Positions 2,196-21,812 of a DNA stretch of 64,000 nt are shown piece by piece. Positions within the stretch are counted from its first letter, which is position 1. Each line of letters begins with the position of its first letter. Both the position numbers and the translations under genes were made by a program. The notes beneath the pieces are model-generated. The model did not search any database. It saw only the letters and a program-made list of their open reading frames with translations, and was not told the DNA's origin. This stretch comes from a bacterium (GTDB lineage: Bacteria; Vulcanimicrobiota; Vulcanimicrobiia; Vulcanimicrobiales; Vulcanimicrobiaceae), in NCBI GenBank assembly GCA_021832345.1, contig JAKBKY010000002.1:62001-126000 (forward strand), read 5' to 3'.

Positions 2196-4395
2196 TGTCA
2201 CGGATGGGCTTGCGCGCCTCGCGCTGCGCCCCGATGAACGCGAGCGCATCGCGCAACAGTTGGGGCGCGAACCGACCCTCGTCGAGTGGTACGCATTCGA
2301 TGCGCAGTGGAGCGAGCATTGCTCCTATAAGTCGAGTCGTCGCCATCTAGCGAAGCTTCCAACGAGCGGCCCCGGCGTCATCCTGGGGCCGGGCGAAGAT
2401 TCAGGCGTTCTGCGTCTGGGCCGCCGGCAAGGAGAAGAGTACGCCATCGTCATTGCGCACGAGTCGCACAACCATCCGTCGCAGGTGGTGCCCTTTGAAG
2501 GGGCCGCCACGGGCATCGGCGGCATCGTGCGCGACGTGCTCTGCATGGGCGCCGAGGTGATTGCGCTCGCCGATCCGCTGCGCTTCGGTCGCGCCGGCGA
2601 TCCAAACTCGCACGCGTGCTCCGTCGCGCGCGGCGCCGTCGACGGCATCTCGGCCTATGGCAACGCGATCGGCGTTCCCAACCTCGCGGGAGACGTCTAC
2701 TTTCACGAGGGCTTCGATGAGAACTGCCTCGTGAACGTGGTAGCACTGGGGTTGGTCAAAGAACCTGAGATCGTGCATTCGTTCGTGCCGAAGGGCGCCG
2801 CCGGATGGGCGATCGTTCTCGTCGGCAAAGCCACCGACGCCAGCGGCTTCGGCGGAGCGTCGTTCTCGTCGGGAACGCTCGATGTTGCCGACGACGATTC
2901 GAATAAGGGGGCCGTCCAGGTTCCCGATCCGTTCCTGGCGAGCGTGCTCATGCGCGCCTCCTACCGCGTCTTCGCGATGCTGCGCGAACGCGGTCTGGTC
3001 GTCGGATACAAGGACCTTGGGGCCGGCGGCATCATGGGCTGCAGCGCGGAGCTGTGCAGTTCCGGCGGCTTCGGTGCGCGTATCGAGCTGGATGCCGTCA
3101 ATGCGGCGCTCCCGGGCCTGGCGCCGGAGGTGCTGGCCGTCGGCGAAACGCAGGAGCGTCTCTGTTGGGCCTTGCCTCAAGAGATCGTCGCGGACGTGCT
3201 GCGCATCTATAACGACGAGTTCTCGCTGCCGCAGATCGCCCGCAATGCGTGCGCGGTCGTCATCGGTGAGGTCACCGCCGAGCCGCGCTACGTGCTCTAC
3301 CATCGCGGCGAGATCGTGATGGACGTGGATATCGACCTGCTGACTGGTTCGATTCGGGACGATCTCCCCGTGCAGCCATGCGTCGCTCGGCCGAGCGTCG
3401 ATCCTGCGATCGCCGATCGTAGACTGGCCGCAGTCCAGTCGCAGGCGGATCTCGCAGCCTCGTTGCTCGCGCATCGCGACGTGGCTTCGCGCGAGCCGCT
3501 CTATCGTCGCTACGATCGCGTCGTTCGCGGCGCGACGGTGATCCCTCGCGGCGTCGCGGATGCGGGCGTTCTGGCGCCGATCCCCGGCTCACCCCTGGGC
3601 GTGGCGCTGGCGGTAGCCGGCAATCCTCGTTACGGTGCGCTCGATGCGCAGCGCGCAGCGGAGTTGGCCGTCGTCGAGGCGGTTCGTAGGGTCGTTGCCG
3701 TCGGCGCGCGCCCGATCGGTCTAACGGACTGCTTGAACTTCGGCAATCCGCGCCAGCCCGAGCAGTACGCGCAGTTCCTTGCGGCGATCGACGGCTTATC
3801 GGCGGGTGCGCGCGCGCTGGAGCTGGCGTTCGTCTCCGGGAACGTCAGTTTCTATAATGAATCCGCCTTGGGCCGGGCGGTCCCGGCATCGGCGATCGTC
3901 GCTTGTGTCGGCGCGTGTGACGACCTTTCGACCCTGCGTCTTCCGAACGTAGGCGATAGCGGCGACCGGCTGGTGCTGGTGGGCGCGCATGCGGGTGCGC
4001 TCGGCGGATCGGTTGCGGCTGCGCTCCTGGGCATCGACGAAGGGTTGCCCGAGGTGGATCTTGGCGCCGAGTGCGCATTGCATGCGCAGGTGCAGGGCAT
4101 CGGTTCGTGCGCACGCGTCGTCGGTGACGGCGGAGCGCTTGCAACCATCGCGCAGATGCTCTTCGGCGCAGATGAGCGGTTGGGCGTGCGCTTCACGCCG
4201 GGGCTTGCGCTGCGTACGCTGCTGGCAGAGAGCAACGGATTCGTCGTGGTTCAACCGAGCGCAGAGCCGCCCGCCGGCATCGTCCTGGGCACCGTGACCG
4301 GCGACGCGGTGATGCAGTTTCCCGACGAAAGCGTGGTGGCCGTTGCCGATCTGAAGGCGCTCTGGTCGGCGAGCCTTGAGGATATCTACCCGTGA
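2179..4395 (+). CDS. purL: Phosphoribosylformylglycinamidine synthase, small-type PurL
   Basis: This is the synthetase subunit of FGAM synthase, converting FGAR to FGAM with ATP and ammonia delivered by PurQ. Near the N-terminus it has WSEHCSYKSS and ESHNHPSQVVPFEGAATG (the active-site histidine region), followed by the two AIRS-type domains expected of a roughly 740-residue PurL that works with separate PurQ and PurS. The open frame extends far upstream into purC, but homology begins only around position 2180. GTG at 2179 or TTG at 2188 are the plausible starts; I used GTG 2179, which overlaps the end of purC by 17 bases. The C-terminus overlaps purQ through GTGA. Confidence 0.95.
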   Translation: MLRLRSVTDGLARLALRPDERERIAQQLGREPTLVEWYAFDAQWSEHCSYKSSRRHLAKLPTSGPGVILGPGEDSGVLRLGRRQGEEYAIVIAHESHNHPSQVVPFEGAATGIGGIVRDVLCMGAEVIALADPLRFGRAGDPNSHACSVARGAVDGISAYGNAIGVPNLAGDVYFHEGFDENCLVNVVALGLVKEPEIVHSFVPKGAAGWAIVLVGKATDASGFGGASFSSGTLDVADDDSNKGAVQVPDPFLASVLMRASYRVFAMLRERGLVVGYKDLGAGGIMGCSAELCSSGGFGARIELDAVNAALPGLAPEVLAVGETQERLCWALPQEIVADVLRIYNDEFSLPQIARNACAVVIGEVTAEPRYVLYHRGEIVMDVDIDLLTGSIRDDLPVQPCVARPSVDPAIADRRLAAVQSQADLAASLLAHRDVASREPLYRRYDRVVRGATVIPRGVADAGVLAPIPGSPLGVALAVAGNPRYGALDAQRAAELAVVEAVRRVVAVGARPIGLTDCLNFGNPRQPEQYAQFLAAIDGLSAGARALELAFVSGNVSFYNESALGRAVPASAIVACVGACDDLSTLRLPNVGDSGDRLVLVGAHAGALGGSVAAALLGIDEGLPEVDLGAECALHAQVQGIGSCARVVGDGGALATIAQMLFGADERLGVRFTPGLALRTLLAESNGFVVVQPSAEPPAGIVLGTVTGDAVMQFPDESVVAVADLKALWSASLEDIYP

Positions 4396-5162
4396 ACCGT
4401 CGCATCGCGGTGCTGGTCTTTCCCGGGACAAACTCGGAAGGCGAGACCCTGCGTTTGTTGCGCGACCTCGGTGCGGATGCGCAGTTAGTCCATTGGAGCC
4501 GGCCGCAGGAGCTGGCTGCGTATGGCGCCTACGTTCTGCCGGGCGGCTTTGCCTACGAGGATCGGATTCGAGCCGGCGCGATCGCCGCACACGACCACCT
4601 GATGGACGCCGTCATCGACGGCTGTGCGAAGGGCAAGCTCGTCTTGGGCATCTGCAACGGCGCGCAGATTCTGCTGGAAGCCGGGCTCGTTCCGGGGACC
4701 GCTGCCGCGCGCAGGCCCACGGCGGCCTTTACGCACAATGCGCCGCAGCCACACTTTATCTGCCGGCACGTCTACGTCAAGCTTGCGAGCGCACCGATGC
4801 GCTCGGCGATCACTGCATCGCTGGATGAAGGTGCGTTGATCCCCGCATGGGCCGCGCACGCGCAGGGGCGATTGGCGGCAGGCCCCGAGCACCTGGCCGA
4901 GTTAGTGGAGGGCGCGCATGTCGCATTCGTCTATGCCCACCCCGATGGTCGTGTTGACGAGCAGGCCGTCCCCAACGGTTCGGCGTTGGGATGCGCGGGT
5001 TTGGTGAACCGGGAGGGCAACGTCTTGGCGCTCATGCCGCACCCCGAACGCGACGCGTGGAACGTCAATCATCTGCAACGCCGTGTCGGCGAGGCGCTCT
5101 TTGCGCCCTCCGGCGGCGCCGTGCTCTTCGAGAGCTTCGTGCGGGCGGTGCAGCGCGCATGA
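4392..5162 (+). CDS. purQ: FGAM synthase glutaminase subunit PurQ
   Basis: A class I glutamine amidotransferase that supplies ammonia to PurL. It begins with AVLVFPGTNSE, carries the nucleophilic cysteine in GICNGAQIL and the catalytic histidine in MPHPER. The length of 256 residues is slightly above the usual 225-235 of stand-alone PurQ. GTG start and TGA stop overlap both neighbours by four bases, giving an unbroken purB-purC-purL-purQ-purS translational chain. Confidence 0.95.
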   Translation: MNRRIAVLVFPGTNSEGETLRLLRDLGADAQLVHWSRPQELAAYGAYVLPGGFAYEDRIRAGAIAAHDHLMDAVIDGCAKGKLVLGICNGAQILLEAGLVPGTAAARRPTAAFTHNAPQPHFICRHVYVKLASAPMRSAITASLDEGALIPAWAAHAQGRLAAGPEHLAELVEGAHVAFVYAHPDGRVDEQAVPNGSALGCAGLVNREGNVLALMPHPERDAWNVNHLQRRVGEALFAPSGGAVLFESFVRAVQRA

Positions 5163-5566
5163 AGACTCGCTACGTGGCGGTTCGCTTGAAGATCCCCGAT
5201 AACCAGGCCTACACGGCGCTGGTGGTGCTGCAGCGGCTTGGGATAGCGCTCGGGCAGGTAGAGCGCAGTGAGATCTACGAGCGAGAAGAAGAGGCCGGCG
5301 GTGCCGCGGAGCTGGCGCGACGGACCATGCGCGATGAGTCGGTCTTCAATCCCAATAAGCATACGCTCGCCGTACTCGAGCAGAACGTGCCGCGCACCGG
5401 CGAAGTGTGGATCGAAGAGTGCGACACGCCGCGTGCGCCGAACCGGCCACGCTACATCGGGTGGCGCCTGTTCCTCACCGATGGAACCCCGGCCGATCGG
5501 GCGACCATCGAAGCAGCCACCACGCGGTTACTCTGTAATCCCGCTATCGAAAGGGCGATCATGTAA
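5159..5566 (+). CDS. PurS-like subunit of FGAM synthase, enlarged
   Basis: The 135-residue product sits exactly where purS is expected, between purQ and purP, and starts at ATG 5159 (ATGA overlap with purQ). The N-terminus, TRYVAVRLKIPDNQAYTALV, has the beta-strand then helix pattern of PurS, and the C-terminus TTRLLCNPAIERAIM resembles the PurS end (leu-leu-x-asn-x-hydrophobic-glu). Normal PurS is about 80 residues. Here about 50 extra residues, including a charged REEEAGG linker and a second strand-rich block, lie between the halves. It could be an expanded or duplicated PurS scaffold. The assignment rests on position and weak similarity, so I leave the symbol blank. Confidence 0.5.
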   Translation: MKTRYVAVRLKIPDNQAYTALVVLQRLGIALGQVERSEIYEREEEAGGAAELARRTMRDESVFNPNKHTLAVLEQNVPRTGEVWIEECDTPRAPNRPRYIGWRLFLTDGTPADRATIEAATTRLLCNPAIERAIM

Positions 5567-6589
5567 ATGGACGGCCAGTACACCATCGCCACGCTGGGCT
5601 CGCATTCAGCGCTTCAGATTCTCAAAGGTGCTCGCGACGAGGGCTTCGGAACGCTTGCGATCGCAAGCCGAGAGACCGAACGGCTCTACCGTTCGTTCAA
5701 GTTCGTCGACGAAGTCATGACGCTCGATCGCTACCAAGACTTTCCGAAGATCGTCGCGGACCTTCAGCGGCGCAAGGCGATCATCGTGCCGCATGGTTCC
5801 TTTGTAGCCTATCTTTCGCTCGAAGAGCAGAAGCAGATGACCGTTCCCTACTTTGGGAACAAAGCAGTGCTTGATTGGGAGGCAAGCCGAGAACTACAAC
5901 GTGAGTGGCTCACGCGTGCCGGTTTGCAGCTTCCGCGGCAGTTCCGCAGCGGTGCGGAGATCGACCGCCCGGTGATCGTCAAACTCTACGGCGCAGCCGG
6001 CGGAAAGGGGTATATGTTCATCCGTGATGCGGCGGACTTCGAAACGCGGGCGGCCAAGCTGCAAGAGGCCTATACCATCCAGGAGTACATCATCGGCGTT
6101 CCGCTCTACATTCACTACTTCTACTCGCCGCTCGACGATACGCTAGAGATCATGAGCATGGACCGCCGTTACGAAACGAACGTCGACTCGCTCGGTCGTA
6201 TCCCTGCCGCGGCCCAAGAAGGCATGGATGTGAGCCCGTCCTATGTGGTCGTCGGCAACTCGCCGGTCAGCCTGCGGGAGTCAATGCTGGTCGAGGCGTT
6301 GCGCATGGGCGAAGACGTTGTGCGCGTCAGTAAGGAGATCTGTCCGCCGAAAGGGCTCTTCGGGGCCTTCTGCATCGAGACCATCATTACGCCGGACATT
6401 CAGTTCTACGTGATGGAGATCTCGGCGAGAATCGTCGCGGGGACGAACCTCTTCATCGACGGTTCTCCCTATTCGTATCTCAACTACTCCGAGTCGATGT
6501 CCACGGGGCGCCGGATCGCCCGTGAGATCAAGAACGCACTGTTAACAAATAACTTGGGACGGGTATTGGATGATTCGAGCGTACTCTAG
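5567..6589 (+). CDS. purP: Formate-dependent AICAR formyltransferase PurP (archaeal type)
   Basis: PurP is an ATP-grasp enzyme that makes FAICAR from AICAR, formate and ATP, replacing the folate-dependent transformylase half of PurH. The N-terminus IATLGSHSALQILKGA is the hallmark of the archaeal family, and the C-terminal EISARIVAGTNLF followed by GSPYSYLNYSE is also diagnostic. Other conserved segments include VKLYGAAGGKGY (nucleotide binding) and QEYIIGVPLYIHYFYSP. Length (340) matches archaeal PurP at roughly 350-360. It begins one base after the stop of the purS-like gene and so belongs to the purine operon. No purH is visible in the window. Archaeal-type PurP is well known in archaea and uncommon in bacteria. 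Confidence 0.93.
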   Translation: MDGQYTIATLGSHSALQILKGARDEGFGTLAIASRETERLYRSFKFVDEVMTLDRYQDFPKIVADLQRRKAIIVPHGSFVAYLSLEEQKQMTVPYFGNKAVLDWEASRELQREWLTRAGLQLPRQFRSGAEIDRPVIVKLYGAAGGKGYMFIRDAADFETRAAKLQEAYTIQEYIIGVPLYIHYFYSPLDDTLEIMSMDRRYETNVDSLGRIPAAAQEGMDVSPSYVVVGNSPVSLRESMLVEALRMGEDVVRVSKEICPPKGLFGAFCIETIITPDIQFYVMEISARIVAGTNLFIDGSPYSYLNYSESMSTGRRIAREIKNALLTNNLGRVLDDSSVL

Positions 6590-7700
6590 ATCGGCCAAGC
6601 TCGCCGTCGCGGTGGGTGCGATCGCGTTGATGCTGAGAACCACATCGGCGAACGCGGCACTGCTGGCGGACCCGTCCCGGCTCTATGCCGCTATGCAGCG
6701 TGCCTACGCGCGCGGGCAGACGCAAGGCTGGTCGTTCTACAACCAGGAGTATTACCTGGCGACCATCTTCAACGCCGGTCGGGCCTATGCGCTGCAGCGC
6801 CCAAACGACCCGGTCTTTGCGCAGTTGGCGATACTCACCGTGCAGATCGGCGCGGGGCTGCACTACGATCCGTTGACCAACCACGATGCCTCGGTCTGGT
6901 ACGTGCGCCAAGCCGCTAACTGGGTGCTGCTCCACTCCACCGACCCAGCGCTCCGGCGCGACGCGACCCGCTTGCTGCGGCGTGCCAACGCGGTCGCGCA
7001 CCCGCGGCGCTTAGCGGTCTATGCCAACGAAGATGCGGCCGCCAACCTTAAAGAGTATCCTCGCGACACCGGGGCGCTCGTGCAGCAGCTTGAGGCCGCC
7101 TGGCGCGCTTGGACGATCACGAAGAATCCAACGTGGCGCTCCCTGGCTTTTTCGCGCGCCGCCAATCCCGACTTTCCGGTTGCGCATCTGCCGACCAGCT
7201 TCGGCCTGGACTTCATCACCGCCGCGCGCTCGGCTACGGCGGGCGTTGCCGGATATACTTCGCTCGATGCCATCGATGCGGAGATCTTTCTCCGGCGTCT
7301 GGCCGGGGTGAGCCCCTTGCGCGTCATCGCTCGGGAAAAGTCGCTGCCGGCTTCGAAGATTCTGACGACGTTGGCACCGGCCGATGAGTATTTCGGGCCG
7401 TTAAAGATGTCGATTCTCGGCATCAAGAACGAGATCAAACGCATCAATCTGCTGCTCGACTACAAGTACGGCAATCGCGAAAGCTCCGCCGCCGTGGAGG
7501 TGAGTAAGTCGATCGATGCCATGCATCGCGCCTATCCGCTCGATCGGGCCCTGCCGCGCTTGCTCTACGAAGCCTACTTCATGCTCGGGCGGCTGACGAC
7601 GCATCAAGCCCGTAGCGAGCGAGCGCGCATGCGCTCGATCCTGACCATCGAGTATCCGGATACGCCGCAGGCCGAGCAGTTGCTTGGGATAACGACGTGA
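6570..7700 (+). CDS. Exported protein of unknown function between two purP genes
   Basis: I do not recognise a family. The product of 376 residues starts with a positively charged segment and a hydrophobic stretch (KLAVAVGAIALML) ending near SANAALL, which reads as a Sec signal peptide. The mature part is predominantly helical, with aromatic-rich segments such as GWSFYNQEYYLATIF and a C-terminal Arg/Glu-rich helix. It overlaps the end of purP by 20 bases and the start of the second purP-like gene by four (GTGA), so it is co-transcribed with two cytoplasmic purine enzymes. That placement is odd for an exported protein. Confidence 0.75.
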   Translation: MIRAYSRSAKLAVAVGAIALMLRTTSANAALLADPSRLYAAMQRAYARGQTQGWSFYNQEYYLATIFNAGRAYALQRPNDPVFAQLAILTVQIGAGLHYDPLTNHDASVWYVRQAANWVLLHSTDPALRRDATRLLRRANAVAHPRRLAVYANEDAAANLKEYPRDTGALVQQLEAAWRAWTITKNPTWRSLAFSRAANPDFPVAHLPTSFGLDFITAARSATAGVAGYTSLDAIDAEIFLRRLAGVSPLRVIAREKSLPASKILTTLAPADEYFGPLKMSILGIKNEIKRINLLLDYKYGNRESSAAVEVSKSIDAMHRAYPLDRALPRLLYEAYFMLGRLTTHQARSERARMRSILTIEYPDTPQAEQLLGITT

Positions 7701-8851
7701 AGCCCGCGTCTAGAGCACACTACGACGTCGCTGCGGTCTTGGCGCGCTACGATCTCGATCGCCTGACGCTCTGCTCGGTCGGTAGCCACTCGGCGCTCGA
7801 CGTCGCCGCCGGCGCTCGGGCTGCCGGGTTACGCAACCTGATCGTCACGGCACGCGGCCGCGAGCAGACCTACGTTCGGCATTTCGCGCGGCGCGAGCAA
7901 CCCATTGCGCGCGGATGCGTGGACGAGACCTTGGAGCTGGGCTCGTTCCCGGAGATTCTCAACGACGACGTGCAGCAACGGCTGCTGGCTGCCAATGCCG
8001 TCTTCGTCCCGAACCGCTCCTTTGAAGTCTATCTGCATCAGCGCTACTCCTACGATGAGATTGAATCCGGGATGCGCATCCCATTCTTCGGCAATCGCTA
8101 CCTGTTGCGCGCGGAAGAGCGCGATGAGGCCGGCAATCAGTACTCCCTCTTACGCAGCGCGCGCATCCGCCATCCGCGGCAGTTCTCCTCGCCGCAGGAG
8201 ATCGATCGGCTGGTCATGGTGAAGGCGCCGCATGCCAAGGTGAGCTTCGAGCGAGCCTTCTTTCTCTGCTCGACGCCTGCGCAGTATCAGCAGATCTCCG
8301 AACGCCTCCTGGCGGAGGGGACGCTCACACAGGAGGGCTTAGCGGGCGCGCTCATCGAGGAGTACCTGCTGGGCCCATCGATTAACCTGAACTTCTTTTT
8401 CTCGCCGTTTTTGGGCGAACTCGAACTGCTCGGAACGGATACGCGCCGTCAGACCAACCTTGAAGGCTTTCGCAACGTGCCGCCGTCGGCACTCGCCGCC
8501 GTCCACGACATCCCGATGCGCTTAGAAGAAGCCGGGCATATCGCTGCAACGCTGACCGAGTCGATGCTGGAAGAGGCGTTTGCCATGGGCGAGCGCTTCG
8601 TGACGGCGGCGCTCACGCAACTGCCGCCGGGCGTCATCGGGCCCTTTGCACTGCAATGCGTGATTCTGGCCGGCCCTCCGAAGGAGTTCGTCTGTTACGA
8701 TGTCTCGTTGCGCATTCCGGGCTCGCCCGGGACGCGCTACACGCCGTACTCCGCCTATCGGTGGGGGCGCGACGTCTCCGTCGGCGAGCGCATCGCCATG
8801 GAGCTGCTCTTTGCTCGCGACGCAGGTACGCTGCAGACCGTCTTAACCTGA
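7697..8851 (+). CDS. Second PurP-family ATP-grasp protein
   Basis: This 384-residue protein is a diverged paralog of the PurP encoded 1.1 kb upstream. It keeps the N-terminal CSVGSHSALDVAAGA motif, the FFGNRYLLRAEE block, IEEYLLGPSINLNFFFSP and a C-terminal YDVSLRIPGSPG where PurP has EISARIVAGTN. The glycine-rich ATP-grasp loop is altered (VKAPHAKVSFERAF where PurP has VKLYGAAGGKGYMF). Archaea often carry two PurP-like genes whose second member is not fully assigned. Here it may be a partner subunit, a backup transformylase, or an enzyme with another substrate. It ends convergently over the methyltransferase gene by nine bases. Confidence 0.85.
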   Translation: MKPASRAHYDVAAVLARYDLDRLTLCSVGSHSALDVAAGARAAGLRNLIVTARGREQTYVRHFARREQPIARGCVDETLELGSFPEILNDDVQQRLLAANAVFVPNRSFEVYLHQRYSYDEIESGMRIPFFGNRYLLRAEERDEAGNQYSLLRSARIRHPRQFSSPQEIDRLVMVKAPHAKVSFERAFFLCSTPAQYQQISERLLAEGTLTQEGLAGALIEEYLLGPSINLNFFFSPFLGELELLGTDTRRQTNLEGFRNVPPSALAAVHDIPMRLEEAGHIAATLTESMLEEAFAMGERFVTAALTQLPPGVIGPFALQCVILAGPPKEFVCYDVSLRIPGSPGTRYTPYSAYRWGRDVSVGERIAMELLFARDAGTLQTVLT

Positions 8852-9442
8852 CGCGCGCAAGACAAAGTGGTAGGGGAACTGCGGCACGTCGAGTGCGTCG
8901 ATGCGTGTAAAACCGGCGTGGCGCAGGCGTTGCCCGGCTTCCTCCGGAGTGTGGACGTGGTCGGGTGGCGGGCCGACAGGGCGCTCTCGTGTGCCGTCCC
9001 AGTCCACGATCAGTGCCCAGCCGCCGGGTGCGGCGCGCGCGCGCAGTTCCGCCAGATCGGCGTCGCCGATCTCGTGGAGCACGTTCACCGCCAGGACTCG
9101 ATCGTAGGCATGCGCAGGAAGTTCGCCCGCGTTGCCGGTCTGCGTCACGACGTTGGCAAGGCCACGCTGCGCTACACGTTCCTCGACGATGGCGATCATC
9201 TCGGGTTGCACGTCGAAGGCGCAGACCCGGGTGCGCGGATGTGCGGCCGCCAGCGCCAACGCGTAGCGACCGGTGCCCGTTCCGAAGTCCAAGGCATACG
9301 CATCGGCGCGAAGGTCGAGCAGCGCGACGAGGCGCTCGGTGGGCAACCAGGCTTCGCGCGCGGGATCGTCCAGGCGCTCGGCCCGGTCGGCAGAGAAGAT
9401 CTCGGGTTGTTTGGCGCCGTGGCGCGGATCGACATGCGACAT
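8843..9442 (-). CDS. Class I SAM-dependent methyltransferase
   Basis: A 199-residue Rossmann methyltransferase with motif I DFGTGTGRYALALA, an acidic end of strand 2 (AFDVQPEMI) and a motif IV-like VLAVNVLHEIGD. The fold resembles UbiE/ArsM-like small-molecule methyltransferases, and the substrate cannot be told from sequence. It is transcribed against the purine operon and lies head-to-head with guaA, sharing a 92-base intergenic region. The ATG start at 9442 has no strong Shine-Dalgarno sequence. Confidence 0.8.
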   Translation of the reverse strand: MSHVDPRHGAKQPEIFSADRAERLDDPAREAWLPTERLVALLDLRADAYALDFGTGTGRYALALAAAHPRTRVCAFDVQPEMIAIVEERVAQRGLANVVTQTGNAGELPAHAYDRVLAVNVLHEIGDADLAELRARAAPGGWALIVDWDGTRERPVGPPPDHVHTPEEAGQRLRHAGFTRIDALDVPQFPYHFVLRASG

Positions 9443-9534
9443 GGGTCGGAGCGCTTCGCGCTGCGAGCGCAGGAGCCTCCGCGCCGGGATGAATGGAGCA
9501 GGTTGGCTGCGAAACGGGCAAGCCCGGAGGAAGC

Positions 9535-11079
9535 GTGAGTCTCGAAACCGTCATCGTGCTCGATTTCGGAGCGCAGTATAGCCAACTTATCGCCAGACGC
9601 GTTCGAGAGCTTGGCGTCTACTGCGAGATTCTTCCCTACGACACGCCGTGGAGCCGGCTGGTGGAGTTGGCGCCGTCGGCGCTCATTCTCTCCGGTGGTC
9701 CGGAGAGTACGCTTGACCCGTCGTCACCGGATCTCGATCCGCAGATCCTGCAGAGCGGCCTGCCGATCCTCGGCATCTGTTACGGCATGCAGTTGGTTGC
9801 GCGCCATCTTGGAGCGCAGCTCGTCAAACTCGAGCATCGTGAGTACGGTCCGGCGATGCTGGCGCTGGTCGGCGGCGCTTCGCCGTTCTTGGCCGGCGTG
9901 CCGGATGACTCTCGCGTATGGATGTCGCACGGTGATTCGGTCATCCGGCTCCCCGCAGGTTTCACGACGTTGGCATCCACGCCTCGCTGTCAGGTCGCGG
10001 CGATGGGCGATGCGGCGCGGCGGATCTTCGGTGTGCAGTTTCATCCCGAGGTGGCTCACACGACGTTTGGCCGGCAAATCTTGCGCAACTTTCTGCGTGA
10101 GATCGCCGGGTTGCAGGCGCAGTGGAAGATGGAGTCGTTCGTCGAGCGTGCCGTCGCGCAGATTCGCGAGCAGGTAGGCGGCGCAGGAGTCATCTGTGCG
10201 CTCTCGGGCGGGGTCGATTCGGCCGTCGCGGCGACACTGGTGGCGCGCGCCATCGGCGAACAACTCACCTGCATCTTTGTGGACCACGGGTTGCTGCGAG
10301 CGGGCGAGGCGCAAGGCGTTGTGGAGGCGTTCCGCGACCAACTGCATCTCAATCTGGTCGTGGTTGACGCACAAGCGCGTTTTCTAAGCAAACTCGCCGG
10401 CATCGATGATCCGGAACGCAAGCGCATCGTCATCGGCCACGAGTTCATCGCGGTCTTTGAAGAAGAGGCCGCCAAGATCGCCGGCGTCGGCTACCTGGTG
10501 CAAGGGACGCTCTACCCCGACGTGATCGAATCCAAGACTCCGCAGAGCAAGGCCGGGCATAAGATCAAGTCGCACCATAATGTCGGTGGCCTGCCGGAGC
10601 AGATGGAGTTTGCATTGATCGAGCCGCTACGGCTGCTCTTCAAAGATGAAGTGCGAGTGTTGGGGCGGGTGCTCGGCCTGCCGGACCACATCGTCGAGCG
10701 CCAGCCCTTCCCGGGCCCGGGTCTTGCGGTGCGGATCATCGGCGACATCACGCAGGAGCGCATCGAGGTGGTGCGGGCCGCCGATGCGATCGTACGGCAA
10801 GAGATCGAGCGCGCGCGCCTCGACCCTAAGCCGTGGCAGTACTTTGCGGTGCTCACGCCGGTGCGTAGCGTCGGGGTTATGGGCGATGGCCGCACCTACG
10901 GCAACCTCGTCGCGGTGCGAGCGATTACAAGCGAGGACGGAATGACCGCCGACTGGGCACGCTTGCCGCACGAGCTGCTCGAAACGATCAGCACACGGAT
11001 CGTCAACGAAGTCCCGGGCGTCAATCGCGTCGCCTACGACATCACCTCGAAGCCCCCATCGACGGTCGAATGGGAATGA
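9535..11079 (+). CDS. guaA: GMP synthase (glutamine-hydrolysing)
   Basis: GuaA aminates XMP to GMP. The N-terminal class I amidotransferase domain starts TVIVLDFGAQYSQLIARR with nucleophile GICYGMQL and catalytic His-Glu in FHPEVAHT. The ATP-pyrophosphatase domain follows with the SGGVDS P-loop around residue 220, then the dimerisation domain ending PPSTVEWE. An earlier ATG at 9493 is in frame, but homology starts at the GTG at 9535, preceded by GGAGGA, giving 514 residues, close to the usual 510-525. It heads a guaA-purD pair. Confidence 0.95.
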   Translation: MSLETVIVLDFGAQYSQLIARRVRELGVYCEILPYDTPWSRLVELAPSALILSGGPESTLDPSSPDLDPQILQSGLPILGICYGMQLVARHLGAQLVKLEHREYGPAMLALVGGASPFLAGVPDDSRVWMSHGDSVIRLPAGFTTLASTPRCQVAAMGDAARRIFGVQFHPEVAHTTFGRQILRNFLREIAGLQAQWKMESFVERAVAQIREQVGGAGVICALSGGVDSAVAATLVARAIGEQLTCIFVDHGLLRAGEAQGVVEAFRDQLHLNLVVVDAQARFLSKLAGIDDPERKRIVIGHEFIAVFEEEAAKIAGVGYLVQGTLYPDVIESKTPQSKAGHKIKSHHNVGGLPEQMEFALIEPLRLLFKDEVRVLGRVLGLPDHIVERQPFPGPGLAVRIIGDITQERIEVVRAADAIVRQEIERARLDPKPWQYFAVLTPVRSVGVMGDGRTYGNLVAVRAITSEDGMTADWARLPHELLETISTRIVNEVPGVNRVAYDITSKPPSTVEWE

Positions 11080-11107
11080 ACTACTCCACTTGTGGTAGGT
11101 GTGTAAG

Positions 11108-12394
11108 ATGCGAATCCTGATCGTTGGAGCCGGCGCACGCGAAGATGCGCTCTCGTGGCGGCTCGCGCAGTCGCCGTCGTGCGAAGCGGTCTTTGCCGCT
11201 CCCGGCAACGCCGGCACCGCATCGCGCGGGCAGAACTGGCCGATCGCCGCGACCGACGGCGTGGCGCTGGTGAAACGCTGCCAGGAGCAGCGCATCGATC
11301 TGGTCGTCCTGGGGCCGGAGTCGGCGATCGCCGCCGGCGTCGGCGATCGGCTGCGCGATGCGGGCCTCGCCGTCTTTGGGCCAAACCGCTCCGGCGGGCG
11401 TTTGGAGTCGAGCAAAGTTTTTGCGAAACGCTTCATGGAGCGCCATGGTGTGCCCACGGCGCGCGCACGGATCGTTCATTCGCTTGAAGCGGCGCAGCGG
11501 GAGCTCGATGCCTGGTCAAGCGGCGGGGTTGTGGTGAAAGCCGATGGTTTAGCCGCAGGCAAAGGCGTGGTCGTTGCGCCGGATGTCGAGGCGGCGCGCG
11601 GCGTAGTGGAGTCGTGGTACCGCTCCCATAGCGTGCCGGGCGGCGGCACCGATGTGTTGCTCGAAGAACTCCTGGTGGGGCGTGAAGTGAGTGTCTTTGC
11701 ACTCTGCGATGGGCGGGCGACCGTTCCATTTGCGGCCGCCTGCGACTATAAGCGCGCGGGGGACGGCGATACCGGGCCAAATACCGGCGGCATGGGGGCC
11801 TACGCTCCACCGCAGGGCTTGCCTGCCGATCTCTTCGATCGGGTCCGCGAGCGGATTCTCTCTCCGGTCCTGCGCGGGCTGCTGGCCGAGGGTGAAACCT
11901 ACATCGGCGTGCTTTACTGCGGCTTGATGTGGACCGGCGACGGTCTTAAGGTTATCGAGTTTAACGCTCGGTTCGGCGATCCCGAGACCCAGGTCCTGAT
12001 GCCGCTCGTCACCGGTGACTTTGCCGCGCTGCTGAAGTCCGTCGCCGACGGCGCGATGGATGTGAGCCTCGCTGCGGTCTGCGGCAAGAGCTGCGTCGGC
12101 GTCGTTCTGGCCGGTACCGAGTATCCTCGGCGTTCGGTGCCGGTGCAGGGGCTGCGCGCCGAGCTGCCGCTCGATTCCGGGACCCAGGTGTTCTGGGGCG
12201 GCTCGACGCTGGTGGACGGCCGTGTCGATGCAAGCGGAGGCCGGGTGCTCACGGTGACGGCGGTTGGCGAGGACATCGCCGATGCTCGAACCCGGGCGTA
12301 CGAGGCCGTAGCGCGGGTAGCCTCTACGTTGGGAACCCGCGAACTCAGCTATCGACGTGACATCGGCGATTTCGCACAACGCGACCGGCAGTAA
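11108..12394 (+). CDS. purD: Phosphoribosylamine-glycine ligase
   Basis: PurD is the ATP-grasp enzyme for step 2 of purine synthesis (PRA plus glycine to GAR). Seen: the N-terminal MRILIVGAGAREDALSW, the segment VVVKADGLAAGKGVVVA, YKRAGDGDTGPNTGGMG, and metal-binding EFNARFGDPETQ. The 428-residue length is normal. ATG 11108 was chosen over the in-frame GTG 11099 because homology starts at MRIL. It follows guaA after 28 bases. Confidence 0.96.
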   Translation: MRILIVGAGAREDALSWRLAQSPSCEAVFAAPGNAGTASRGQNWPIAATDGVALVKRCQEQRIDLVVLGPESAIAAGVGDRLRDAGLAVFGPNRSGGRLESSKVFAKRFMERHGVPTARARIVHSLEAAQRELDAWSSGGVVVKADGLAAGKGVVVAPDVEAARGVVESWYRSHSVPGGGTDVLLEELLVGREVSVFALCDGRATVPFAAACDYKRAGDGDTGPNTGGMGAYAPPQGLPADLFDRVRERILSPVLRGLLAEGETYIGVLYCGLMWTGDGLKVIEFNARFGDPETQVLMPLVTGDFAALLKSVADGAMDVSLAAVCGKSCVGVVLAGTEYPRRSVPVQGLRAELPLDSGTQVFWGGSTLVDGRVDASGGRVLTVTAVGEDIADARTRAYEAVARVASTLGTRELSYRRDIGDFAQRDRQ

Positions 12395-13176: not shown

Positions 13177-14547
13177 ATGTGCGGCATCGCTGGAGTCTAC
13201 GCCCCGGGTCGTGATGCGGCTCGGTTAACGTACTTTGCGCTCTATGCGTTGCAACACCGCGGCCAGGAGTCGGCCGGCATCGCGGCCTCAGACGGCGGAA
13301 CGATTCGCTCGCACAAAGAGATGGGGTTGCTTGGCGCGATCTTCAACGAGGAGATTCTCGCCATGTTGGCGGGGTTTCTCGCGGTCGGCCACACGCGCTA
13401 CTCGACCAGCGGCTCCTCGATCGTCGTCAACGCGCAACCGTTGCTCGAGCGCAGCGAGCTCGGGGACTTTGCCTTTGCGCATAACGGCAATCTTACCAAC
13501 ACCGACGAACTGCGGGAGGCTCTCTCGCCCAGCACCATCCTGCAGGCCGGCTCCGACTCCGAGGTGCTTGCCAAAGCGTTGGTCGAGGCGTCAGGGTCGA
13601 TGGTCGAACGCATCCGCGCGGTCATCGCGCGCGCGCGCGGCGCGTACTCGGTCGTCCTCTCCACCGAAACGGAACTCTACGCCTTTCGCGATCCATGGGG
13701 CGTGCGCCCGCTCTGCTTAGGCTCGCTGCCGGAGAACGGCTGGGCCGTTGCCTCCGAATCGTGTGCGCTCGGGACCATCGGCGCAACCTACGTGCGTGAG
13801 ATCGAGGCCGGCGAGATTCTGCGCATCGGCGCGCACGGAATCGAGTCGGTGACGGTGGATGTTCCGGACGCGTTTCCGGCGCTCTGCATGTTTGAATACA
13901 TCTACTTCGCTCGCCCCGATTCCAAGCTTGCCGGCCGGAGCATCTATATGGCACGTTATGAGATGGGCCGGGCGCTTGCGCGCGAGCACCCGGTGGATGC
14001 CGACGTTGTCATGGCCGTTCCGGATTCGGCGGTGCCGGGTGGGATAGGCTACGCAACCGAAAGCGGCTTGCCGTATGTTGAGGGTCTTATCAAGAATCGT
14101 TACATCGGGCGCACCTTCATTAGTCCCGATCAATCGATGCGCAATCTCGGCGTGCATCTGAAGTTTAACCCGGTTCTTGAGAATTTGCGCGATCAGCGCG
14201 TGGTTGTCGTCGACGACTCCATCGTTCGCGGCACGACGACTCCGAGGATCGTCTCGCTCCTGCGCGATGCCGGCGCCAAAGAGGTGCATCTTCGCATCAC
14301 CTCGCCGCCGATCAAACACCCGTGCTATCTCGGCGTCGATATGGCCACCTACGATGAACTGATCGCCGCCAACTACACCGTCGAAGAGATTCGCGCTCGC
14401 ACGGGGGCTGATTCGTTAGGCTATCTTGGCCTCGATGAACTGATCGCCGCTACCGGGCGTAAGCGCGAAGAGATGTGCCTAGGCTGCCTGATCGGCACCT
14501 ATCCCAACGTTCCGTCAACCCACCGCACGCGCGTCCTCGCGCAATGA
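13177..14547 (+). CDS. purF: Amidophosphoribosyltransferase, Fe-S type
   Basis: PurF commits PRPP to purine synthesis. The N-terminal nucleophile cysteine is in MCGIAGVYAPG, and the PRPP-binding loop is VVVVDDSIVRGTT. The four cysteines of the Bacillus-type 4Fe-4S cluster are present: one in LCMFEYIYFARPDS, one in KHPCYLGVDMAT and two in CLGCLIGTYP, so this is the oxygen-sensitive Fe-S class (456 residues). The N-terminal propeptide seen in some members is absent. The stop overlaps the ClC gene by ATGA. Confidence 0.96.
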   Translation: MCGIAGVYAPGRDAARLTYFALYALQHRGQESAGIAASDGGTIRSHKEMGLLGAIFNEEILAMLAGFLAVGHTRYSTSGSSIVVNAQPLLERSELGDFAFAHNGNLTNTDELREALSPSTILQAGSDSEVLAKALVEASGSMVERIRAVIARARGAYSVVLSTETELYAFRDPWGVRPLCLGSLPENGWAVASESCALGTIGATYVREIEAGEILRIGAHGIESVTVDVPDAFPALCMFEYIYFARPDSKLAGRSIYMARYEMGRALAREHPVDADVVMAVPDSAVPGGIGYATESGLPYVEGLIKNRYIGRTFISPDQSMRNLGVHLKFNPVLENLRDQRVVVVDDSIVRGTTTPRIVSLLRDAGAKEVHLRITSPPIKHPCYLGVDMATYDELIAANYTVEEIRARTGADSLGYLGLDELIAATGRKREEMCLGCLIGTYPNVPSTHRTRVLAQ

Positions 14548-19611: not shown

Positions 19612-20679
19612 GTGAGCCCCGATAACTCTCCCCCTTTTCGCCCGGAGAACGCGCCGGGACCTCTCGACGCCTATGCGCGCTCGGGCGTGGACATTGCGGC
19701 AGGCAACGCGGCGGTCGCCGCTTACCGGAGCGTGCTTGGCTCCTGGCGTCACCCCGATCAGCTCGATGCGATCGGGGGCTTCGGCGGCCTCTTCCGGCTG
19801 CCCGGCAGCGACGACCGGGCGCTGGTGGCCTCGACCGACGGCGTCGGAACGAAGATTCTGATCGCCGCCGAGCTGCACCGTTACGACGGTGTCGGCTGGG
19901 ACCTGGTCAACCATTGCGTCAACGACATCCTGGTGGTGGGGGCCGACCCGCTCTTCTTTCTCGACTATCTCGCCGTCGGCAAACTCGACCCCGGCGTTGC
20001 CGCGGCGCTTGTGGAAGGGTGCGCGCGGGCCGCTCGGGCGCACAACTGCGCGCTGCTCGGCGGTGAGACCGCCGAGATGCCCGGAGTCTATGCGCCCGAA
20101 CACTTCGATCTCGCCGGTACGATCGTCGGCATCGTCGACCTGGACCGTGTGCCGAAGCACACCGATGTTGCACCAACCGACGCGATCATCGGGTTGCCCG
20201 CGGTCGGGCTGCATACCAACGGTTACTCGCTTGCGCGCGCGCTCATCTCCCACGATGAGTGGAACGCATCCTTCGCCGGTGCTACCTACGCCGATGCGCT
20301 GCTGGCCGAACACCCATCGTACTTTACGCGGGTGCGAGCGATCCAGCGCGTCGCGCGCGTGAAGGCGATGGCGCATATCACCGGAGGCGGACTCCTCGAG
20401 AACGTCGGTCGTACCTTGCCAAGCGGCGTGAAAGCGATCTTCGAACAAGCGCGCTGGAGCGTGCCGCCGATTCACCAAGAGTTGGTGGATCGCGGGAAGC
20501 TTTCGGTTGAAGAGCGGTACCGCACGTTGAACATGGGCGTGGGCTATACGCTCGTCGTGCCCTGCGCCGATGCGCCCGCTGCGCTCGCGGCCGTGCCCGG
20601 GGCGTTTGTGGCCGGCTGGATCGAAGCGCGTGAGGGCGAGCAGCCGCAGGTCGTGGTGCATCCCGCGCGCCAAGCGTGA
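19612..20679 (+). CDS. purM: AIR synthetase (phosphoribosylformylglycinamidine cyclo-ligase)
   Basis: PurM closes FGAM to AIR with ATP. Seen: LVASTDGVGTKILIA, VNDILVVGADPLFFLDY, LLGGETAEMPGVY and GGGLLENVGRTLP. The open frame reaches far upstream across the divergent pepA promoter region. GTG 19612, sitting three bases after a GAGGGGG ribosome-binding site, gives 355 residues, close to the usual 345. Its stop overlaps the following purN fusion by four bases. Confidence 0.95.
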   Translation: MSPDNSPPFRPENAPGPLDAYARSGVDIAAGNAAVAAYRSVLGSWRHPDQLDAIGGFGGLFRLPGSDDRALVASTDGVGTKILIAAELHRYDGVGWDLVNHCVNDILVVGADPLFFLDYLAVGKLDPGVAAALVEGCARAARAHNCALLGGETAEMPGVYAPEHFDLAGTIVGIVDLDRVPKHTDVAPTDAIIGLPAVGLHTNGYSLARALISHDEWNASFAGATYADALLAEHPSYFTRVRAIQRVARVKAMAHITGGGLLENVGRTLPSGVKAIFEQARWSVPPIHQELVDRGKLSVEERYRTLNMGVGYTLVVPCADAPAALAAVPGAFVAGWIEAREGEQPQVVVHPARQA

Positions 20680-21812
20680 GCGATCGCGTCCATCTCATCG
20701 TCGATCTGGCCGGCGAGCGGTTCACCGCGCAGGCGTCGGCACGGTCATTGCGCAGCATCGAGGCGCTCGGGTTGCGCCATCGCGTCGTCATCGGTGACGA
20801 CGATCAGGCCGTCCTAGCCTGGATCGACGCAACCTTCAGGGGAAGCTGGAGCAGCGACGCGTTTGCCGCGCGCTGCATGGTCGTCGAGAACGGCCAAATG
20901 CCGGTCGGCGTGGCGACGATCGACGCGCAACATCGTCGCTCTTGCCGGTTGCCGGATAGAGCCCGTCAACCCGATGCCGGTCTCCTCGACTTCGTCGGTG
21001 TGGAACAGGCATGGCGTCACCGTGGTGTGGGTGCAGCGCTGCTCACGCTCGCGCTCGGGGCTCTCGCCCAACAAGGCTATCGGTACGCGTTGATTCCTTG
21101 CGTCGGTTCGTCTTCGGTCGGCTGGTATGAACGACACGCCGGTGCGCGAGTGGTCGAGACCGTCGCGCACGCCGGGCAGCGCGTCACGCCGGTGCGCGCG
21201 AGCATCCTGGTCTCCGGTGACGGCAGTAACCTGCAGGCCGTACTCGATCGCGTGCAGGACGGCAGGTTGGCGCTCCAGATCGGCAGTGTGATCTCGAACA
21301 ACGAGCGTGCCTATGCCGTCGAACGCGCGCGACACGCCGGGGTTGCGGATGTTCGCGTACTGCCGTGGCGGCGTGCCGAACAGTCGCGTAGCGCCTACGA
21401 TGCGCAGTTGCTGGCGATGGTGCGCGCCGGCGAACCCGAGCTGATCTTGCTGCTCGGGTGGATGCACCTGCTCGACGCTGCCTTCGTGAGCAGCTTCCCG
21501 CAGACGTTGAACCTCCATCCGGCCTTCTTGCCGCTCGACCCTGCGCACGATTGCGTCGTGTTCCCAGATGGTAGGCAACAAAGAGCGTTCCGCGGTGCGC
21601 ACGCCGTTGCCGATGCGCTGGCGGCCGGCTCGCGCTGGATCGGAGCGACCGTGCATCGTCTGCAGGCGGAGATGGATCGCGGCGCCGTGATGGCGCGTGA
21701 GCCGCTGGCCTTACCCGAGGGTGCCGATGAGGCCATGGCCATGCAGGCATTGCGACCGGTGGAGCATCGCGTCGTCGAAACCGCAGTGCGGCGTTGGCTG
21801 GACGAGCGCTAG
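20676..21812 (+). CDS. purN: GNAT acetyltransferase-GAR transformylase (PurN) fusion
   Basis: The C-terminal ~205 residues are GAR transformylase, using 10-formyltetrahydrofolate to formylate GAR. It begins ASILVSGDGSNLQAVLD and keeps the catalytic Asn and His in NLHPAFLP and the catalytic Asp in the EMDRGAVMA segment. The expected loop between them is altered, with an insert (DPAHDCVVFPDGRQQ). Residues 1 to about 165 form a GNAT-like domain with the acetyl-CoA motif VEQAWRHRGVGAALL and a typical final SVGWYERHAGAR strand-helix. Normal PurN is about 190-215 residues and has no such domain. The frame is continuous with no sign of a joining error, and the gene is coupled to purM. Confidence 0.85.
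   Translation: MSDRVHLIVDLAGERFTAQASARSLRSIEALGLRHRVVIGDDDQAVLAWIDATFRGSWSSDAFAARCMVVENGQMPVGVATIDAQHRRSCRLPDRARQPDAGLLDFVGVEQAWRHRGVGAALLTLALGALAQQGYRYALIPCVGSSSVGWYERHAGARVVETVAHAGQRVTPVRASILVSGDGSNLQAVLDRVQDGRLALQIGSVISNNERAYAVERARHAGVADVRVLPWRRAEQSRSAYDAQLLAMVRAGEPELILLLGWMHLLDAAFVSSFPQTLNLHPAFLPLDPAHDCVVFPDGRQQRAFRGAHAVADALAAGSRWIGATVHRLQAEMDRGAVMAREPLALPEGADEAMAMQALRPVEHRVVETAVRRWLDER

Follow-up and report, generated by a model that had tools for sequence, protein, structure and literature searches.

Why does the purine operon of a bacterium carry a gene for PurP, a protein that has been called exclusively archaeal (PMC4177761)? The gene in question, PurP1 (5567-6589, forward strand, 340 aa), lies in the 64,000-nucleotide stretch of DNA that was analysed here (the window), and a sequence-only reading had described it as a PurP of archaeal type within a bacterium's purine operon. 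Its family matches, its nesting in archaeal trees and its operon position all bear this description out.

PurP1 was said to follow directly on purL-purQ-purS, and it does: the TAA of purS ends at position 5566 and the ATG of PurP1 begins at the next base. The gene order, on the forward strand for every gene given with coordinates, is purB (1-1008, beginning upstream of the window, with its 5' part in locus L075), purC (1005-2195), purL (2206-4395, start codon approximate), purQ (4392-5162), purS (5159-5566), PurP1, a gene that we call X (6570-7700), a second PurP gene (PurP2), a methyltransferase gene on the opposite strand, guaA (9493-11079), purD (11099-12394), BI1 and purF (13177-14547), with purM and a GNAT-purN fusion (20676-21812) farther on. 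PurL (TIGR01736, 602 bits) and PurQ (TIGR01737) score above the cut-offs of their models, and the expected domains are found in GuaA (GATase and GMP_synt_C), PurD (GARS_N/A/C) and PurF (glutamine amidotransferase and phosphoribosyltransferase). The gene for the FGAM synthase small subunit, purS, overlaps purQ in an ATGA and lies between purQ and PurP1; its product matches the PurS profile weakly (0.021, below the Pfam cut-off). Gene X encodes 376 aa with an N-terminal signal-like stretch and gave no Pfam or NCBIfam match. It is found in only one family of the class (f1) and is missing from the other two (f2 and f3), where PurP1 and PurP2 adjoin directly.

The PurP hallmark motifs noted earlier are both in place in PurP1, GSHSALQI at residue 11 and EISARIVAGTN at residue 284. 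In domain searches DUF1246 (1.8e-41) and DUF1297 (1.2e-66) span its whole length, and among PurP chains in the PDB its best match is 2r84 from Pyrococcus furiosus (8e-100), followed by 2r7k from Methanocaldococcus jannaschii (1e-87). Formate--AICAR ligase models of NCBIfam also match, down to 7e-114. PurP1 misses their equivalog cut-off, with a best score of 380.5 bits against 580-590, however these models appear to be narrowly calibrated, and the miss therefore speaks against automatic naming of the protein, not against its membership of the PurP family. On these sequence grounds the open reading frame encodes a genuine PurP, a member of the formate- and ATP-dependent FAICAR synthetase family.

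Archaeal PurP proteins have been divided into cluster I, with Asn258 and the P-loop (K/R)GG(K/R)G, and cluster II, with His258 and a loop that is two residues longer and has lost its glycines; His27 and Arg314 are common to both (Brown et al. 2011, PMC3261824). In M. jannaschii numbering, H27, Ser/Thr94 (here S94), N258 and R314 are invariant in our alignment of PurP1 orthologues from the class. The P-loop reads GG(K/R)G in 53 of the 54 orthologues and GGMG in the remaining one; the residue preceding it, which is K or R in the published definition of the cluster, is variable, and the window's PurP1 has AGGKG. PurP1 shares the DUF1246 plus DUF1297 ATP-grasp architecture of the cluster Ia protein MJ0136 of M. 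jannaschii (2r7k/2r7l/2r7m), its GGKG loop resembles the GGRG of that protein, and the four residues named above are kept. It differs in being only 42-44% identical to MJ0136, in falling outside the Ia clade and in having a bacterial host with a complete PurH. The protein is closer to PF1517 of P. furiosus (2r84-2r87), a cluster Ib member with about 50% identity, whose host is an archaeon without PurO or PurH2, whereas the host of PurP1 has a full PurH.

The sequence-only reading overlooked a second, divergent PurP in the window. PurP2 (7697-8851, forward strand, 384 aa) starts with a GTG, and this start overlaps the stop of gene X by 4 bp. It matches DUF1246 (1e-32), DUF1297 (1e-48) and PDB 2r7k (E=2e-58), and its AF2 model best matches M. 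jannaschii PurP (2r7k/2r7m, E=1e-29); the model is of only moderate quality (mean pLDDT 68.6) and served for fold assignment alone. PurP2 retains H27 and R314 and is changed at the P-loop, N258 and N320. Position 258 is His in all 55 aligned sequences of the class, and the ATP loop is two residues longer than in cluster I, with the P-loop glycines gone (AKVSFERAF in the window, aligned to ARGG--RGY). In its His258, its longer loop without the glycines and its retained H27 and R314, PurP2 resembles cluster II proteins such as PF0421 and AF0256. It differs after R314, where GGGTN is replaced by GSPGT in the bacterial PurP2 as well as in the archaeal group that is its sister. Thus N258 with GG(K/R)G in PurP1, and H258 with the longer loop in PurP2, assign the first protein to cluster I and the second to cluster II. 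Its rebuilt ATP loop, together with a change at a residue on the AICAR side, suggests that PurP2 is not a second independent ligase.

Every one of the 55 class genomes sampled, which cover three families, has PurP, and none of five genomes from other families of the phylum does. Both copies are present in 54 of the 55; the single exception, a genome that is 70% complete, has PurP2 only. In a phylum-wide count about 112 of 117 class genomes have PurP, and the pair does not occur in the rest of the phylum. Three of the five genomes without it also lack a detectable purL and the other two carry purL on partial contigs, so that no clean loss is seen and true loss of PurP in these five is unsupported. 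The locus is also stable in its arrangement, with purL/Q/S directly upstream of PurP1 in 51 of 53 loci. In most of f1, gene X, sometimes with further genes, lies between PurP1 and PurP2. Of nine proteins compared between f1 and f3, PurP1 shows the highest conservation (73% identity, with 67% for GuaA, 63% for PurP2, 54% for PurL and 53% for PurH), which indicates that it is under strong constraint.

The earlier claim that PurP is rare in bacteria agrees with its description in PMC4177761 and with its absence from ten bacterial control genomes, and those controls make up our sample beyond the phylum, so the claim stands to that extent. The best 80 loci listed by a scan of contigs for PurP were all archaeal, a result with no bearing on other bacteria, and a search for plasmid-borne bacterial PurP gave no match.

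We then asked where the pair came from. In the trees, which left out Thermoproteota and most Thermococci, bacterial PurP1 and bacterial PurP2 each form one clade (100/100) nested among archaeal PurP, PurP1 within cluster Ib and PurP2 within cluster II, itself supported at 100/100. The sister of PurP2, with support of 99/96, is an archaeal group that we call group X (X2; L243-L253), whose members were sampled from the phylum of Methanothrix and Syntrophoarchaeum. PurP2 and group X share the ERAFF loop and the GSPGT motif, and in group X the two PurP genes are also adjacent, in the order II-I. For PurP1 the closest archaeal sequence by identity, at up to 55%, likewise belongs to group X. In the careful tree, PurP1 instead groups with PF1517 (97/94) and an AU test spoke against PurP1 with X1 (p=0.045); in a larger quick tree the grouping of PurP1 with X1 was not rejected (AU p=0.51). 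An archaeal source of the pair before the ancestor of the class is thus well supported, and a single donor for both proteins is plausible. The sequence-only reading had left a choice between transfer and an ancient pathway variant; the nesting of PurP1 in archaeal trees, together with its fixation in the whole class, points to a transfer that is itself ancient.

Group X is informative also for function, since the AICAR-transformylase half of PurH is missing from 10 of its 11 genomes and in seven the cyclohydrolase half is all that is present, which leaves the PurP pair as the only known candidate for AICAR formylation there. This pattern agrees with that reported for ANME-1 (PMC9012536), and group X may be ANME-1. 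In one group X genome (L285, G242:C81) a separate PurH2 is accompanied by a bacterial-like purH of full length (43% identical), which could be contamination or a recent gain.

That no purH lies in the window is correct, as the only AICARFT match of this genome is on contig C3. There, however, purH is complete (520 aa, bifunctional, with MGS and AICARFT domains; NF002049 582 bits against a cut-off of 402). The residues that Brown et al. name for the two activities of PurH were found in the motifs checked in 21 class members, and a full-length purH is present in 52 of the 55 sampled genomes. The implied replacement of PurH by PurP is therefore ruled out. A complete purH elsewhere is one half of what would count against the sequence-only reading, the other being a PurP without activity. 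PurO, proposed alongside purH as something to look for, is absent: IMP_cyclohyd (PF07826) matched in 0 of 60 genomes, which removes PurO as a downstream partner of PurP and means that PurH is still needed as IMP cyclohydrolase. Formate-THF ligase (Fhs) was found in just 3 of the 55 class genomes and is missing from the window's own genome. PurT, considered as a second formate enzyme, exceeded its cut-off in no genome, and GAR formylation is served by PurN. With a folate-dependent PurN, no PurT over the cut-off and Fhs mostly missing, a formate-using PurP would be the only recognised entry of free formate into purines.

The explanation that we favour, and consider fairly probable, is that the two proteins are an anciently acquired, working archaeal cluster I/II pair that gives a formate route to FAICAR besides PurH. 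The pair would have come from archaea, before the class diversified from its last common ancestor, and would have become part of the core purine operon. PurP1 would convert AICAR, ATP and free formate to FAICAR by formyl-phosphate chemistry in its ATP-grasp active site, and PurP2, with its rebuilt P-loop, would work with PurP1 instead of acting as an independent second ligase. PurH would close the ring from FAICAR to IMP and could also formylate AICAR from 10-formyl-THF. PurH takes the step from AICAR to FAICAR that is also predicted for PurP; it has an unrelated fold and uses 10-formyl-THF instead of formate and ATP. Such a cell would have two routes to FAICAR, one from folate and one from formate, and formate would enter purines in a class most of whose members have no formate-THF ligase; the missing Fhs suggests a reason for keeping the formate route. 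There are counterpoints. The complete and apparently intact PurH makes PurP dispensable for purine synthesis on paper, PF1517, the nearest assayed relative of PurP1, is reported to lack AICAR formyltransferase activity (PMC3261824), and PurP1 misses the NCBIfam equivalog cut-offs. The same apparent redundancy is seen in Methanosarcinales, which likewise have a complete PurH together with cluster Ib and cluster II PurP (PMC3261824). Unlike them, the present hosts are a class of bacteria that lack PurO and in which the pair is a fixed part of the core pur operon.

Both protein families were already known; what is new is the bacterial setting and the fixed pair, a highly conserved cluster I/II pair that an entire class of bacteria has in its purine operon, set against the description of PurP as exclusively archaeal. 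The roles of the cluster Ib and cluster II proteins were left open in the 2011 survey (PMC3261824). The class probably includes a cultivated mesophilic isolate, and a pair encoded in one operon of mesophilic bacteria is a practical system for asking whether both proteins act as one enzyme. It would also offer a formate route into purines that does without formate-THF ligase.

A stronger version of this proposal, which we hold only tentatively, is that PurP1 and PurP2 are an obligate heteromeric formate-dependent FAICAR synthetase, in which the cluster I protein would supply the ATP site and the cluster II protein would contribute an indispensable subunit that lacks the usual ATP loop. The heteromer would then be the main AICAR formylator of the class, with PurH acting mainly as IMP cyclohydrolase. 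Neither PF1517 nor PF0421 had detectable AICAR formyltransferase activity (PMC3261824), and an obligate heteromer would account for the inactivity of cluster Ib and cluster II proteins assayed singly. Archaea with a cluster Ib protein carry exactly one cluster II protein (PMC3261824), and in the class PurP2 shows the same one-to-one co-occurrence with its Ib-like cluster I partner. Under the two-subunit hypothesis, near-perfect co-retention of the two genes and inactive single Pyrococcus proteins are what would be expected.

The inactive Pyrococcus proteins would also fit a pair that has been repurposed for some other ligation of the ATP-grasp kind, with AICAR or a similar ribotide as substrate, in salvage, in signalling or in the handling of a ZTP-like alarmone, while PurH carries out both last steps of the pathway. 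The presence of PurH with its catalytic residues in nearly all the genomes would allow this, and the altered P-loop, N258 and N320 positions of PurP2 are in keeping with it. However, PurP1, which lies in the core pur operon, retains the residues named for binding of AICAR, formyl and ATP, and the archaea that are sister to PurP2 seem to have no AICAR-formylating enzyme other than the pair. We consider repurposing unlikely. In searches of the window and the purH loci, neither ZTP (pfl) nor any other riboswitch was found, the only Rfam matches being tRNAs.

Less likely again is simple redundancy, in which an ordinary FAICAR synthetase (PurP1) would be accompanied by a paralogue (PurP2) that is regulatory or vestigial and acts independently, without any partnership between the two. 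PurP2 is indeed less conserved than PurP1, its ATP loop is broken up, and in some f1 genomes it lies several kb away from PurP1 or on another contig. PurP2 is, however, kept in essentially all genomes and better conserved than PurH, and the strict pairing of cluster Ib with a single cluster II protein in archaea argues against it too.

We regard it as highly improbable that the cluster II protein is the missing IMP cyclohydrolase. This idea follows a speculation based on the co-occurrence of a duplicate PurP with missing cyclohydrolases in Crenarchaeota (PMC3261824), but PurP2 is accompanied by the cyclohydrolase domain of PurH both in this class and in the majority of the archaeal sister group, so that retention of PurP2 does not require such a role.

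Contamination or an assembly chimera that put an archaeal gene on a bacterial contig can be dismissed for the class, with a probability close to nil, as the same operon is found in essentially all of the 55 genomes, including one assembled as one contig (G008), and its PurP proteins form a monophyletic clade on a long stem. The picture does fit the lone PurP found outside the class but within the phylum (G146), which is 96% identical to that of Methanothrix harundinacea. Its contig (L057, G146:C110) aligns to Methanothrix DNA at about 83% identity over several kb, and this PurP is most likely archaeal contamination, a Methanothrix-like contig binned into a bacterial genome.

Three further features of the operon were noted. 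The gene between PurP2 and guaA on the opposite strand (8843-9442) encodes a class I SAM methyltransferase, and the same arrangement is found in a few f1 relatives. In PurC, SAICAR_synt covers residues 7-228 and is followed by a C-terminal domain of about 165 aa that is weakly class II PurE-like, in the manner of PAICS: it has no Pfam match, its resemblance to animal PAICS/ADE2 has an E of 0.1-0.16 (0.16 for 2h31, Multifunctional protein ADE2), and the usual class II PurE catalytic motifs are not evident. The protein looks like a PAICS-type fusion with a decayed PurE half. Finally, the predicted 10-formyl-THF-dependent GAR transformylase, PurN, carries a GNAT acetyltransferase domain fused to its N-terminus (Acetyltransf_1 at 62-155, Formyl_trans_N at 175-370). 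Its PurN fold appears to hold an insertion, and since the Formyl_trans_N match falls into two pieces in many relatives, this insertion may be a class-wide trait of PurN.
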